Shown here: positions 582 to 30,415 of the stretch, piece after piece
Layout of the letters: each line of letters opens with the position of its first letter
Numbering within the stretch: the stretch's first letter is position 1
DNA from: Candidatus Odinarchaeia archaeon
GTDB taxonomy: Archaea > Asgardarchaeota > Odinarchaeia > Odinarchaeales > Odinarchaeaceae
DNA: 37,364 nt
Reading direction: 5' to 3'
Assembly (NCBI GenBank): GCA_029856525.1
Contig: JAHQXC010000004.1
Coordinates: 1 to 37,364 of the forward strand
Notes under the pieces: generated by a model
Seen by the model: the letters and a program-made list of their open reading frames with translations, nothing else
What the model was told of the DNA's origin: nothing
Databases searched by the model: none
Made by a program: the position numbers and the translations under genes

Positions 582-3500
582 ATGGCTTTTAAGCTTGAAG
601 AGTTTATTAAAGATTCTGTTAAACTCAGCAATCATGTAAGCACCCAGGACACCGGGTTGAATAAAATGCCATCGCAATCTAGTAGTAATATAATTGCCGA
701 GTCTCCGCCGGATTTAAGCCGAAGTATTCTATTATCAGTTAACTATGACGGTGTTAAAGGCCTCGCCTATGCTAAACTATACTGTTTAGAAGATAATAGA
801 ATCTATTTCTGGTATGATAACACTCAGCATCATCCATATTGTTTAACCGATTTAAATGAGGAGGAGCTTAAAACTATAGAAGCCTTGATGAAACATCCCG
901 GGTTACTTGGATTTAAAAAAATTAGAAAGCATAGTCTACTATATGATAGAGATATTGAAATGGTTAAAATAGAGGCTAAGGATCCTTTAAGCATAGGCGG
1001 TAAAAAGAATTCGATAAGAGAGATTCCAGGTCTTAGAACATGGGAGAGTAATATTAGATACCATCACTCTTATATTATGGATAGACAGTTAACCCCAGGC
1101 TGTATATACTATATTAAAAACGGTGTTCTACGCGAAGAATCATATGAGATGACTCCTGAACAATTAGCTGAAATAAGGCATCTTTTCAAAGAGGATTTAA
1201 AAATATACGAGGATCTTATAAAACGCTATCTACCGAGGATAATGGATGCAATCCCTGAATTATACCGTGTCGCGCTTGATATAGAAGTATCCACTCCTGT
1301 AGAGGATTTCATACCTGAACCTGAGACTTCAGAGTATCCGATAATATCTGTAGCTTTAGTGGATAGTAAAGATAATAGTAGGGTTCTTCTCTTATCCAAC
1401 GGTCAGAGTAAAGGTGTCAGACCTGAAAGCTTCCCCCAGGATGTTAAACTAGAATATTTTGAAAACGAAGTAGATTTAATTCGAACCGTTTTCTCATATA
1501 TAAGCGAGGTGCCTATACTATTAACTTTTAACGGCGATAATTTTGATTTAAGATACCTATATTATCGAGCTAAAAAATTAGGTGTTAGCGAGGATCAGAT
1601 TCCTATAGTTTTAGGAGACTACGCTGAACTTAAGAAGGGTATTCACATAGATCTCTACCCGTTTTTCAACAATGTATCGATTAAAGGCTATGCTTTCAGT
1701 AACCGATATATCGAATCAACTCTTAACAGTATAGCTAAATCTCTTTTAAACGAGGAGAAAATTCAATGCGATAAATTTATCACAGACCTCTCTTTAATGG
1801 AGCTCGCTCACTACTGCTGGAATGACAGCAGGCTTACAATGAAATTGACGAAATTTAATAATGAACTTGTGATGAGACTGATAATATTATTGATGAGAAT
1901 CTCCCATCTCCCCATAGAGGATTTAACTAGAACAGCGGTTTCAGCTTGGATTCGAAACCTCATGTTCTATGAACACCGGTATAAAAACTATTTAATACCG
2001 AATCAAGAGGATATATTAAAAGAGAAAGGGGAAATCCACAGTCAATCAATAATTAAAGGTAAAAAGTTTAAAGGAGCTATAGTTATAGAGCCGGTTAGAG
2101 GGGTTCACTTTAATGTAGTTGTTTTAGACTTCGCATCTCTTTATCCATCTATAATAAAGAAATATAATCTCTCATATGAAACAGTTCAATGCCCTGACCC
2201 TGATTGTAAAAATAATATTCTCCCTGGAACCGATTACTGTGTATGCAAGAAAAGGATAGGATTATTCTCTTCAATAGTAGGTTTTCTAAGAGATCTGCGT
2301 GTAAACTGGTTTAAAGTGAAGGCTAAAGATAAAAGTATAATACAGGAAACCCGAGACTACTATAAAGTTATAGAGCAGGCTTTAAAAGTTTTCATAAACG
2401 CTTGCCTCCCAGCGGATGAAGAGATACTAGTTAGAAGAGAAGACGGCTTACTTGAGAAGATTAGTATAGGTGAACTTAAAAAAAGAGATTGGAAAAAATT
2501 AAACGTTCTCTCAGTTCACAACACGCGCATTGGATTCGGTGAACCCTTCTTTTCACCTATACTAGACTTTGAAAAAAAATATAGCGCTGAATTAATAACT
2601 ATTACCACGGAAGATGGGCGTGAAATAAAATGCTCGCCTAATCATATTATCCCTAAAATTTCAGGAGGCGTTATTCAGGAGGCGCAGGCCTGCGATTTAA
2701 CACCGGGCGTAGATATTTTAATATACGCGCCAGCTCTTCTACCTGAAAAAAATATTGATCGGCTATTCATCCCAGACGTGTTATCTAATAAAGTGAAAAT
2801 CATAGTTAAATACCCTGCTCTAAACTCCCGGCTACTCTCCGTTCATCACTCTCAAAAAATCGCCTATTCAGCTGACGGAGGCTCCACAACCGTTGATTGG
2901 AATTTAATACCAGACGAGGAGAAGAAGATTATTAGAGATGAGTCGAATAATCTGGAATTTAAAATAGGATGGAACTCAAGTAACTGGTATCCAGGTTATT
3001 TGAATATAAACGATGATTTCATAAAACTTTTAGGCTATTATCTTAAGATAGGTGAGGTTGAACGAAACTATATTATTTTCAACACTCAATGTTCAAACAA
3101 TGTAAACCATGTGCTCTACTGTTTAAAACGTTTAAACCCAGGGTTAGATTATAAGATAATCAGTGCTGGAGTAAACAGTGTTAAAGTGAAATCTAAAATT
3201 TTAGCTTTAATATTAAGGAGATTATGCGGTGTTAAAAATAATAAAACTATTCCATTATATTTATTGAATCATAGAACTGCGAAGTTAATTTTACAATCCT
3301 ACACTGAGCTCGATGAATGCAATGTTATTAAAGTGAAAGGGAGAAAACTGAAAAATGATCTTATATACATCTTTGACTGTCTGAGGGTTAAATTCCACTG
3401 TGAAAGTGTAGGTGAAGACGAATATACATTTAGAATCAGCGGATTCTCAGCCGCTGAACATGAATTTAACAAAAAACTTGGAGGTCTTATCTTAAAACGT

Positions 3501-4403
3501 GTAGCAGCCATTAAACCTGTAAAAGGTAAGCGATACGTTTACGACTTATCGACTGTAAACGGCTGGTTTGTTTCAACTAATAATATAATAGTCCATAACT
3601 CTTACGGTGTGATAGGCAGCGATGTCTTCCCATTATATACTCCGCCTGTAGCTGACAGTACTACCGCTATAGGCAGATACGCTATAACTAAAGTTATTGA
3701 AAAAGCTAAATCCCTAGGCGTTCAAGTATTATACGGTGACACTGACAGCGTCTTCTTAAAGAATCCTTCAAGAGACCAGGTTAACGCGCTTATCGAATGG
3801 AGTTCACGAGAACTTGGCATAGACTTAGATGTTGATAAAATATACCGTTACGTGGCTTTAAGCGATCGGAAGAAAAATTACTTAGGAGTTTATGAGAACG
3901 GTGATGTTGACATTAAAGGGTTAACTGGTAAAAAGAAGCATGTCCCAGTATTCCTCCAGAGAGCTTTCAACGAGATGATAAAGGTTTTAAGTAATGTTCA
4001 CAGTGAACAGGAGTTTAACGAGGCTAAAAATAAAATCAGAGAGATTGCAACATCGCTTTACAGGAAAATCGAGCGCAGGGAAATACCTTTAGAAGAATTA
4101 GCGTTTAAAGTTCAAATGAGTAAACCGATTGAATCCTACACTAAGACAACACCCCAGCATATTAAAGCCGCTAAGCTTTTAGAGGATAGAGGGAAAGAGG
4201 TTAAACCGGGCGGGATAATCGCATTCGTTAAGACACGTGACGAGCTCGGTGTTAAGCCTTTATCCATAGCATCCATCAACGACATAGACACTGAAAAATA
4301 CAAGGAGGCGATTGAATCTACATTCGATCAGGTACTTGACTCTCTGAACATCGATTTCAAAGAGGTTATGGGTATCCGTAAGCTCTCTGATTTCTTCAGC
4401 TAA
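582..4403 (+). CDS. polB: Family B DNA polymerase, interrupted by an intein
   Basis: Exo motifs ALDIEV, LLTFNGDNFDLRYL and YCWNDSRLTMKL; pol motif A DFASLYPSII; motif B KVFINA/SYG split by the intein; motif C YGDTDSVF. Confidence 0.97.
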   Translation: MAFKLEEFIKDSVKLSNHVSTQDTGLNKMPSQSSSNIIAESPPDLSRSILLSVNYDGVKGLAYAKLYCLEDNRIYFWYDNTQHHPYCLTDLNEEELKTIEALMKHPGLLGFKKIRKHSLLYDRDIEMVKIEAKDPLSIGGKKNSIREIPGLRTWESNIRYHHSYIMDRQLTPGCIYYIKNGVLREESYEMTPEQLAEIRHLFKEDLKIYEDLIKRYLPRIMDAIPELYRVALDIEVSTPVEDFIPEPETSEYPIISVALVDSKDNSRVLLLSNGQSKGVRPESFPQDVKLEYFENEVDLIRTVFSYISEVPILLTFNGDNFDLRYLYYRAKKLGVSEDQIPIVLGDYAELKKGIHIDLYPFFNNVSIKGYAFSNRYIESTLNSIAKSLLNEEKIQCDKFITDLSLMELAHYCWNDSRLTMKLTKFNNELVMRLIILLMRISHLPIEDLTRTAVSAWIRNLMFYEHRYKNYLIPNQEDILKEKGEIHSQSIIKGKKFKGAIVIEPVRGVHFNVVVLDFASLYPSIIKKYNLSYETVQCPDPDCKNNILPGTDYCVCKKRIGLFSSIVGFLRDLRVNWFKVKAKDKSIIQETRDYYKVIEQALKVFINACLPADEEILVRREDGLLEKISIGELKKRDWKKLNVLSVHNTRIGFGEPFFSPILDFEKKYSAELITITTEDGREIKCSPNHIIPKISGGVIQEAQACDLTPGVDILIYAPALLPEKNIDRLFIPDVLSNKVKIIVKYPALNSRLLSVHHSQKIAYSADGGSTTVDWNLIPDEEKKIIRDESNNLEFKIGWNSSNWYPGYLNINDDFIKLLGYYLKIGEVERNYIIFNTQCSNNVNHVLYCLKRLNPGLDYKIISAGVNSVKVKSKILALILRRLCGVKNNKTIPLYLLNHRTAKLILQSYTELDECNVIKVKGRKLKNDLIYIFDCLRVKFHCESVGEDEYTFRISGFSAAEHEFNKKLGGLILKRVAAIKPVKGKRYVYDLSTVNGWFVSTNNIIVHNSYGVIGSDVFPLYTPPVADSTTAIGRYAITKVIEKAKSLGVQVLYGDTDSVFLKNPSRDQVNALIEWSSRELGIDLDVDKIYRYVALSDRKKNYLGVYENGDVDIKGLTGKKKHVPVFLQRAFNEMIKVLSNVHSEQEFNEAKNKIREIATSLYRKIERREIPLEELAFKVQMSKPIESYTKTTPQHIKAAKLLEDRGKEVKPGGIIAFVKTRDELGVKPLSIASINDIDTEKYKEAIESTFDQVLDSLNIDFKEVMGIRKLSDFFS
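2403..3599 (+). other. In-frame intein (399 aa) inside DNA polymerase B motif B
   Basis: Starts with Cys (CLPADEEILVRREDGLLEKISIGEL), has TTEDGREIKCSPNHIIP (block B-like) and ends YVYDLSTVNGWFVSTNNIIVHN followed by extein Ser. Removing it restores KVFINASYGVIG. Confidence 0.95.
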
Positions 4404-5339: not shown

Positions 5340-5861
5340 TTGAGTAAAAAATACGTGTTTAAACTGGTAGTTTTAGGAGATGAAAGAGTAGGTAAAACCT
5401 CTCTCATATTCAGATATACTGAAAGAAGATTTCTAGGAGACTATAAACCTACGATAGGAATCGATTTCTCAGCTAAACTTGTCGAGATAGGTAAATATAA
5501 TGTTGATCTTATCATCTGGGATTTAGGCGGACAGGAGAAGTACAGGATTTTGAGAAAACACTATTTAGAAGGCGCTAGGGGAGCTATACTAGTATTCGAT
5601 TTAACTAACAGCCAGTCTCTTGAACATATAAACAGCTGGTATACTGATCTTCAACAAAACTGCGGTGACGTCCCAGCCATACTCGTCGGTAATAAAGCTG
5701 ATTTAGTTCAAGAACGGAAAGTATCAGCTGAAGAAGCTAGAAGAAAAGCTGAACTGTTAGGGTTAAAATATATGGAATGCTCAGCTAAAGATGGAACAGC
5801 GGTTGATGAAGCGTTCAAGGATATAACCCAGCAGATGATAGAGAAATATGTATACGGCTGA
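5340..5861 (+). CDS. Ras/Rab-like small GTPase
   Basis: G1 GDERVGKTS, G2 PTIGIDF, G3 WDLGGQE, G4 NKAD, G5 ECSAKD. TTG start directly abuts the TrmB stop codon. Confidence 0.95.
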   Translation: MSKKYVFKLVVLGDERVGKTSLIFRYTERRFLGDYKPTIGIDFSAKLVEIGKYNVDLIIWDLGGQEKYRILRKHYLEGARGAILVFDLTNSQSLEHINSWYTDLQQNCGDVPAILVGNKADLVQERKVSAEEARRKAELLGLKYMECSAKDGTAVDEAFKDITQQMIEKYVYG

Positions 5862-12572: not shown

Positions 12573-12944
12573 TTGGCTGTTAACCGTGTCCCTCAAATAG
12601 AAGAGGTTCTAAGAGAATTAGAGCTTACAACTAGTCAAGTGGAAGCCAGCGCGGTTGTGAGCGTTGAAGGTCTTCCAATATGCTCGGCTATGCCGTTAGG
12701 GGTTGATGACGGTATTTTAGCAGCTATGACTGCGACTATTTTAAGCGTGGCTGAAAGAGCTGCAGGTGAACTGGCGCGGGGTAAATTGAACCGTGTTCTA
12801 GTTGAAGGAGGAGACGGATATTTTATAATCTCCTCCGCTGGTAGAGATGCGATTCTAGCTGTTCTAACAAAAAGTAAAGCGAATCTGGGAATGGTTTTCT
12901 TAGCTATGGATAGAGCGTGTGAAAAAATAAGTAAACTGATATAA
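12573..12944 (+). CDS. Roadblock/LC7 domain protein
   Basis: 'SAVVSVEGLPICSAMPLGVDDGILAAMTATILSVAERAAGELARGKLNRVLVEGGDGYFIISSAGRDAILAVLTKSKANLGMVF' is a classic roadblock domain. Confidence 0.95.
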   Translation: MAVNRVPQIEEVLRELELTTSQVEASAVVSVEGLPICSAMPLGVDDGILAAMTATILSVAERAAGELARGKLNRVLVEGGDGYFIISSAGRDAILAVLTKSKANLGMVFLAMDRACEKISKLI

Positions 12945-24406: not shown

Positions 24407-24485
24407 ACCATTAAAAATATATTTTAGTTTTTCAACCTCTATCTTCGGGCCCGTAGCGAAGCCAGGACATCGCGCAGCCCTCCGG

Positions 24486-24497
24486 ATGATAGGGGGG
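24486..24497 (+). other. Canonical (37/38) tRNA intron, 12 nt
   Basis: BHB: central helix CTCC (24480-24483) with GGGG (24492-24495); bulges GGA and GGA cut as GG^A on both sides; outer helix CAGCC/GGCTG. Confidence 0.88.
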
Positions 24498-24519
24498 AGG
24501 CTGAATTCACCGGTTCGAA

Positions 24520-24535
24520 TTCTATGAGACGGAAA
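24520..24535 (+). other. Non-canonical tRNA intron in T-loop at 59/60, 16 nt
   Basis: BHB: outer helix ACCGG/CCGGT, bulges AAT and AAT cut as AA^T, central helix TTCG (24514-24517)/CGGA (24530-24533), inner helix TCT/AGA with loop ATG. Confidence 0.9.
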
Positions 24536-25064
24536 TCCGGTCGGGCCCGCCACGTTTAAAACCGCATGCTTTTATAAATTCATCGTTATCGACAGGTGTT
24601 ATAACAGCTGTGAGAGCACCCTCCTGGTATATTTCAAGTAGGTTTCTATCTCTTATTAATGCGGTTATTATCTTATCTCCGCTGCTTGCAAGCAGCGCTA
24701 GCTTCCTCTTAGAGGTTAATTCGTCTACCTTCTTGATCGCGGTAACTTTCTCTAAGGGTATTATTTTTTTCTCCAATCCGTTTTCTATTATAATCTGTTT
24801 CTCGGTTACAGCTAATCTTATAAACTTATATTTAATGTGAAAATAACCTCCTAAAGCTATTATAACGACGCCTATCGCTATAGAGAATAAAAGATTATAG
24901 AGTGATACTTCAGGAAACGGCATAAGAAAGTACACTACAGGGATAAGTGTGAAACCTATAATAATTAAAGGCAGAGATCTACGCCAGCTTGAAACTTTTA
25001 TTCTATCCTCATATATGAGATCTCTCTCGCATACTTCTCGATCACGTTTCAACGCATTTTCCAC
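24522..25064 (-). CDS. Membrane protein with bacterial PH-like domain
   Basis: Two TM helices followed by 'FIRLAVTEKQIIIENGLEKKIIPLEKVTAIKKV' PH-like pattern; GTG start; 3' end overlaps the tRNA. Confidence 0.75.
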   Translation of the reverse strand: MENALKRDREVCERDLIYEDRIKVSSWRRSLPLIIIGFTLIPVVYFLMPFPEVSLYNLLFSIAIGVVIIALGGYFHIKYKFIRLAVTEKQIIIENGLEKKIIPLEKVTAIKKVDELTSKRKLALLASSGDKIITALIRDRNLLEIYQEGALTAVITPVDNDEFIKACGFKRGGPDRISVS

Positions 25065-29278: not shown

Positions 29279-30415
29279 ATGAACAGCGACCAGGAGTCAT
29301 TTACCGCGATACTTGTATTAGAGGACGGCTCTATTTTCAGAGGCTTCAGTTTTGGTTGTAAAGGTGAATTCGAAGGCGAGGTTGTGTTTAATACAGGTAT
29401 GGTCGGCTACCCTGAGTCTCTTACAGATCCATCGTATCACGAACAGTTTTTATGTCTAACATATCCGCTGATAGGAAACTACGGAGTCCCCTCCTACGAT
29501 GTTTTCGAATATTCTCTTCCGAAATATTTTGAATCTGATAGAATCCAGGTTAAAGGATTAATAATAAGCGAGTTATGTTTTCAGCCAAGTCACTGGCTTT
29601 CTGTTAAAACTTTAAGTGAATGGTTGAGTGAGCAGGGTGTACCTGGAATATACGGGGTTGATACACGAGAGTTGACTAAAAAACTCCGTGAGAAAGGGGT
29701 TATGCTCGGTGTTCTTAAAACATTTAGTGAAGGGGATGAAGTGGACGAGTCGGAGTTGATTAAAAAAGCTGGGCGGATAAAGGATCCTAACGAGAGAAAT
29801 CTGGTAGCTGAGGTGAGTACTAAGAGAACTCTAATTTATAATAAAGGCGGTCGGCTGAGAGTGGTATTATACGACTGCGGTGTTAAATATAATATTATAA
29901 GATGCCTTGTGAAGAGGGGTGTTGAAGTTATACGTGTTCCATATGACACGCCATTCGATAAGGTTCTCGCGTATAAACCTCAAGGTGTATTACTGAGCAA
30001 CGGTCCGGGTGATCCTAAGAAAGTGTCTTCTCTAATTCTTAATGTTCGAAGACTTTTAGAAGCCGATATACCTATAATGGGTGTTTGTTTAGGAAATCAG
30101 ATTTTAGCTTTAAGCGGGGGAGCTGACACATATAAGTTAAAATACGGTCATAGGTCTCAGAATCAACCCTCCCTGAATGTTTTAAATAATAAATGTTATA
30201 TTACCAGTCAAAATCACGGCTACACTGTTTTAGAGAATACCTTGGATGAAACAGACTTTAAACCATGGTTTGTTAACGTTAACGACCATACTAATGAAGG
30301 TATAATAGATAAAACTGGCAGGGTTTTTGCAGCTCAATTCCACCCTGAGAATCATCCCGGTCCAGTTGACACTGAATTTATTTTCGACTTATTTGTAAAA
30401 AGAATGAGTGGTTAA
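29279..30415 (+). CDS. carA: Carbamoyl-phosphate synthase small subunit
   Basis: GEVVFNTGMVGYPESLTDPSY, LLSNGPGDP, PIMGVCLGNQILAL, QFHPENHPGP. Confidence 0.97.
   Translation: MNSDQESFTAILVLEDGSIFRGFSFGCKGEFEGEVVFNTGMVGYPESLTDPSYHEQFLCLTYPLIGNYGVPSYDVFEYSLPKYFESDRIQVKGLIISELCFQPSHWLSVKTLSEWLSEQGVPGIYGVDTRELTKKLREKGVMLGVLKTFSEGDEVDESELIKKAGRIKDPNERNLVAEVSTKRTLIYNKGGRLRVVLYDCGVKYNIIRCLVKRGVEVIRVPYDTPFDKVLAYKPQGVLLSNGPGDPKKVSSLILNVRRLLEADIPIMGVCLGNQILALSGGADTYKLKYGHRSQNQPSLNVLNNKCYITSQNHGYTVLENTLDETDFKPWFVNVNDHTNEGIIDKTGRVFAAQFHPENHPGPVDTEFIFDLFVKRMSG

Follow-up and report, generated by a model that had tools for sequence, protein, structure and literature searches.

A two-intron tRNA-Arg(CCG) gene in the Asgard genus Odinarchaeum

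Closest described systems and anatomy of the gene

In Thermoproteales (Pyrobaculum and its relatives), tRNA genes with several introns combine an intron at position 37/38 with non-canonical bulge-helix-bulge (BHB) introns in the same gene, and position 59/60 is among the listed non-canonical archaeal intron positions (PMC4090602). The tRNA-Arg(CCG) gene analyzed here has a comparable arrangement, but it belongs to an Asgard genus, Odinarchaeum, and thus to a different phylum, and its introns, at 12 and 16 nt, are very short. Among the Asgards, Atabeyarchaeia and Freyarchaeia have interruptions in 92-95% of their tRNA genes, often at non-canonical positions and with several introns in many genes; Odinarchaeia tRNAs are absent from the main text of that report (PMC11291895). 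Odinarchaeum resembles these two groups in being an Asgard with an intron-rich tRNA set, although the proportion of interrupted genes in a sister genome is about 80% versus their 92-95%. With regard to the splicing enzyme, the closest system is the (alpha-beta)2 endonuclease of Aeropyrum pernix, which shares with the Odinarchaeum proteins a separate beta subunit and a catalytic alpha subunit in which the 'Crenarchaea-specific' loop is accompanied by Lys44 and by a basic side chain at residue 46 (PMC6379350, PMC12397907). It differs in that the Odinarchaeum beta has both Pfam domains and in that the Odinarchaeum loop occurs outside the Crenarchaea, the group for which it is named. A literature search found no paper on Odinarchaeum tRNA introns.

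The window, by which we mean the whole 37,364-nt stretch of DNA that was analyzed, comes from a genome assembly that is 93% complete. Tubulin from this assembly is identical at 386 of 423 positions (91%) to OdinTubulin, PDB entry 7evb, which we take to be the Odinarchaeota tubulin (its PDB label is 'tubulin-like protein'). This identity places the genome in Odinarchaeum, so the initial annotation had guessed correctly at an Asgard, and the genome represents a second species of the genus. The sister genome used for comparison is from the same genus and is a closed single contig of 1,418,269 bp, taken as Ca. Odinarchaeum yellowstonii LCB_4, for which a closed genome of 1.418 Mbp is described (PMC9246712).

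The gene occupies 24447-24552, where the 106-nt precursor sequence reads GGGCCCGTAGCG...CGGGCCCGCCA. Its features are as follows.

24413..24426, + strand: candidate archaeal promoter, TATA-like and rich in A+T, AAAAATATATTTTA, beginning 34 nt and ending 21 nt before the tRNA gene (predicted from sequence)
24447..24485, + strand: exon 1, with the acceptor 5' strand, D arm and 5' half of the anticodon arm to position 37 (anticodon CCG); identical in the sister genome
24486..24497, + strand: intron 1, 12 nt, position 37/38, ATGATAGGGGGG; relaxed BHB; 14 nt at the same place in the sister
24498..24519, + strand: exon 2, running from position 38 through position 59 in the T-loop; the sister differs at one base (T/C)
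24520..24535, + strand: intron 2, 16 nt, T-loop position 59/60, TTCTATGAGACGGAAA; full BHB; 17 nt in the sister
24536..24552, + strand: exon 3, with T-loop position 60, the T stem 3' strand, the acceptor 3' strand, discriminator G and CCA (24550-24552); identical in the sister genome

In silico excision of both introns leaves a canonical 78-nt tRNA-Arg(CCG) with an encoded CCA, in which the acceptor (7-bp), D (4-bp), anticodon (5-bp) and T (5-bp) stems are all perfect, the anticodon loop is CTCCGGA and the T-loop is TTCGAAT. The coordinates and lengths that the initial annotation had assigned to the two introns proved exact. A split or permuted tRNA gene was ruled out, as the three exons are contiguous and in order. 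A TATA-like A+T-rich stretch likewise precedes the sister gene. The CGG codon occurs 38 times among the 10,538 codons of the window; it could also be read through wobble by a tRNA-Arg(TCG) present in the sister genome, and tRNA-Arg(CCG) may thus not be essential. On the opposite strand, an ORF at 24522-25064 with a bacterial PH-like domain ends within the tRNA gene and covers its last 31 nt. The corresponding frame in the sister genome also enters the tRNA gene, with a different C-terminus.

Splice motifs and detection by gene finders

At each junction two 3-nt bulges flank a 4-bp helix. Intron 2 forms a complete BHB in which the T stem is the outer helix, followed by the 4-bp helix TTCG/CGGA, AA^T bulges, an inner helix TCT/AGA and a 3-nt loop. 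At intron 1 the anticodon stem is followed by the 4-bp helix CTCC/GGGG with GG^A bulges on both sides, and no inner helix was found in either species, the loops being GGATGATA and GGATGATTAA. The initial annotation had drawn BHB motifs by hand at both junctions. This drawing stands in full for 59/60, while the 37/38 site, judged by its pairing, is a relaxed bulge-helix-loop form, leaving the T-loop site as the only full BHB. Because the flanking bases repeat, either junction could be shifted by a few bases with no effect on the mature tRNA, so the register given here rests on the BHB geometry.

Shuffling of the intron sequences gave different results for the two sites. Specifically, an identical combination of 4-bp helix and 3-bp inner helix arose in 0.26% of intron 2 shuffles, and the 4-bp helix of intron 1 arose in 12% of trials, which makes intron 1 weak when taken alone. 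In addition, a purpose-built scanner that looks for tRNAs interrupted by BHB introns was applied to the sister genome and to Markov surrogates. The tRNA-Arg(CCG) gene scored 64.5, versus a surrogate maximum of 45.8 in 2 x 1.4 Mb of sequence and a top non-tRNA score of 48.3 in the real sister genome, where 40 tRNA genes scored above 54 and two weaker real tRNA genes scored near 44. The scanner mislabels some tRNAs, such as those with variable-region introns (the tRNA-His at LCB_4 688303 was initially read as Cys), and exact positions of variable-region introns are therefore not claimed.

The contiguous sequence had been said to lack a normal tRNA fold, and indeed neither ARAGORN nor Rfam at its gathering score found anything in the intact window. 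ARAGORN was still silent at this locus when only the canonical intron was removed. When only the T-loop intron was removed, ARAGORN called the gene and reported the 12-nt intron itself, and when both were removed it named the product tRNA-Arg(ccg), the very tRNA proposed from the initial reading. It is thus the T-loop intron that makes this gene invisible to ARAGORN.

Comparison with the sister genome and occurrence across Asgards

A DNA search of 59 genomes returned one close full-length match to tRNA-Arg(CCG) beyond the genome it came from, and this match is in the sister genome, where the flanking genes are the same. The exons differ at 1 base over 78, and both introns are at the same positions in the sister with lengths of 14 and 17 nt and diverged sequences, while every pair of the 4-bp helices remains standard. 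In intron 2 of the sister the 4-bp helix is TTCG/CGAG (a T-A and a T-G pair are swapped), and the inner helix has gone from TCT/AGA to TTT/AAA, a two-sided compensatory change of C-G to T-A. Pairing is thus retained despite sequence change, as judged from two species, one compensatory pair and additional one-sided changes. We regard these diverged yet paired insertions as the strongest evidence that they are introns held under a pairing constraint.

These comparisons bear directly on the possibility that the locus is a decayed pseudogene with two random insertions and that tRNA-Arg(CCG) is supplied by another gene. That the intact sequence has no normal tRNA fold and is missed by ARAGORN and Rfam would fit such decay, but decay does not fit exons that are nearly invariant between two species, insertions that diverge and stay paired, or stems that are perfect throughout. 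Furthermore, a second intact copy, which the initial annotation had named as an observation that would count against its reading, was not found by DNA search in either the 93% complete assembly or the sister genome, nor by the scanner in the sister genome outside a 40-kb stretch that reads N. We consider a pseudogene very improbable. A different alternative accepts splicing at 37/38 alone and has the 16-nt T-loop insertion retained as an enlarged T-loop. In its favor, 37/38 is the commonest intron position and the extended T arm makes a stable hairpin. However, an insertion there in the mature tRNA would disrupt the contact between T-loop and D-loop, and the site carries a full splice motif, which is conserved with covariation and more complete than that of the 37/38 intron. 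The same position is moreover interrupted in five different sister tRNAs, and retention of the insertion is accordingly most unlikely. The gene of this hot-spring Asgard is real and functional-looking, and introns like the two it contains have been described in archaea before.

Analysis of the sister genome, of which 40 kb reads N in this census, revealed 42 tRNA genes by scanner. Introns are present in 35 of these (about 80%), and at least 21 have two or more. Introns at 59/60 were found by the scanner in five of them, namely Arg(CCG), Arg(GCG), Leu(CAA), Pro(CGG) and Pro(TGG). A census over about half of the genome that holds the window found that its Pro(TGG) and Pro(CGG) also have 59/60 introns with the same geometry. 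Multi-intron tRNA genes are the rule in this genus, and the two-intron tRNA-Arg(CCG) is ordinary within it. The locus had been called a notable case for an Asgard genome, a view that does not survive this census or the intron-bearing tRNA sets reported in other Asgards (PMC11291895). The single tRNA-Arg(CCG) gene in itself changes nothing known; what the census adds is an Asgard genus in which T-loop-intron tRNA genes are routine. Farther away, another Asgard family has a tRNA-Arg(CCT) with a 59/60 intron and a third has an intronless tRNA-Arg(CCG), so the position recurs in Asgards without being fixed.

The expectation that standard scans could miss such a gene was borne out well beyond this locus. 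In the sister genome, 32 tRNAs were recovered by the Rfam tRNA model, including two that the scanner had missed, but the model failed to find 12 of the 42 scanner tRNAs, all five 59/60 cases among them. This is an annotation gap: about one in four tRNAs of such a set escapes a general tRNA model.

Splicing endonuclease, ligase and proposed mechanism

The search for splicing endonuclease subunits proposed in the initial annotation yielded two EndA genes, alpha (contig C56, 188 aa) and beta (contig C61, 187 aa), each coding for a protein with both Pfam domains. Alpha matches the Aeropyrum pernix protein 3p1z (E 6e-44), keeps the Tyr/His/Lys triad together with Lys44 and Lys46, and carries the 'Crenarchaea-specific' loop in which Lys44 lies. 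Beta, coded by its own gene, retains Tyr and Lys and has the catalytic His replaced. The relaxed-specificity enzyme that the initial annotation had postulated agrees with this pair, in so far as the loop can be taken to indicate broad specificity. Joining of exons would fall to RtcB, the gene for which is present on contig C95 and runs off the contig end. This RtcB is interrupted by an intein-like insertion in which a LAGLIDADG domain is present.

Taken with the gene structure, these enzymes make it very probable that this is a functional Odinarchaeum tRNA-Arg(CCG) gene with two protein-spliced introns that are cut by a heteromeric endonuclease and joined by RtcB. In the scheme we propose, the precursor would be transcribed, and at each intron the tRNA stem and the 4-bp exon-intron helix would present two 3-nt bulges, both of which would be cut by an endonuclease, presumably an (alpha-beta)2 tetramer, with alpha catalytic and beta structural. 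RtcB would then join the exons into the 78-nt tRNA. The alpha loop with Lys44 would permit cutting at the relaxed 37/38 site as well as at the T-loop site. The gene anatomy, the conserved positions of the diverged but paired introns, and the enzymes with their key residues constitute the demonstrated part of this scheme.

It is also conceivable that both introns are spliced by an endonuclease of other stoichiometry, or by one with a further subunit whose gene lies outside the assembled sequence, given that sequence does not reveal stoichiometry and that the assembly is 93% complete. Against this, two EndA paralogues, one of which lacks the catalytic His, are present both in this genome and in the closed sister genome, and 50 of the 59 genomes searched have two or more EndA matches. 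We consider such an assembly improbable, and an (alpha-beta)2 enzyme is the reading that we retain.

The loop and Lys44 are present in 30 of 30 aligned Asgard EndA alpha sequences (this one and 29 others). In Asgards, the enzyme predicted to be able to remove T-loop introns therefore has the loop that is thought to mark Crenarchaea. A literature search found no paper on the loop in Asgards, and Kaneta et al. 2018 may already describe its distribution. We tentatively suggest, as a possibility about which we remain somewhat doubtful, that the 'Crenarchaea-specific' loop and lysine are Asgard-wide in a two-subunit endonuclease, that broad specificity is older than the divergence of Asgards from Thermoproteota and already existed in the archaeal source lineage of eukaryotes, and that intron-saturated tRNA sets such as that of Odinarchaeum are its consequence.

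Finally, in regards to other genes in the window, a family B DNA polymerase at 582-4403 is split by an intein, with a splicing domain matched within residues 627-1006. A Rab-like small GTPase (5340-5861) and a roadblock protein (12573-12944) are eukaryote-signature proteins of a type frequent in Asgards. The carA gene for the carbamoyl-phosphate synthase small subunit, at 29279-30412, has pattern-scan relatives that are all from planctomycetes (39-45% identity), and gene transfer is a possible explanation.
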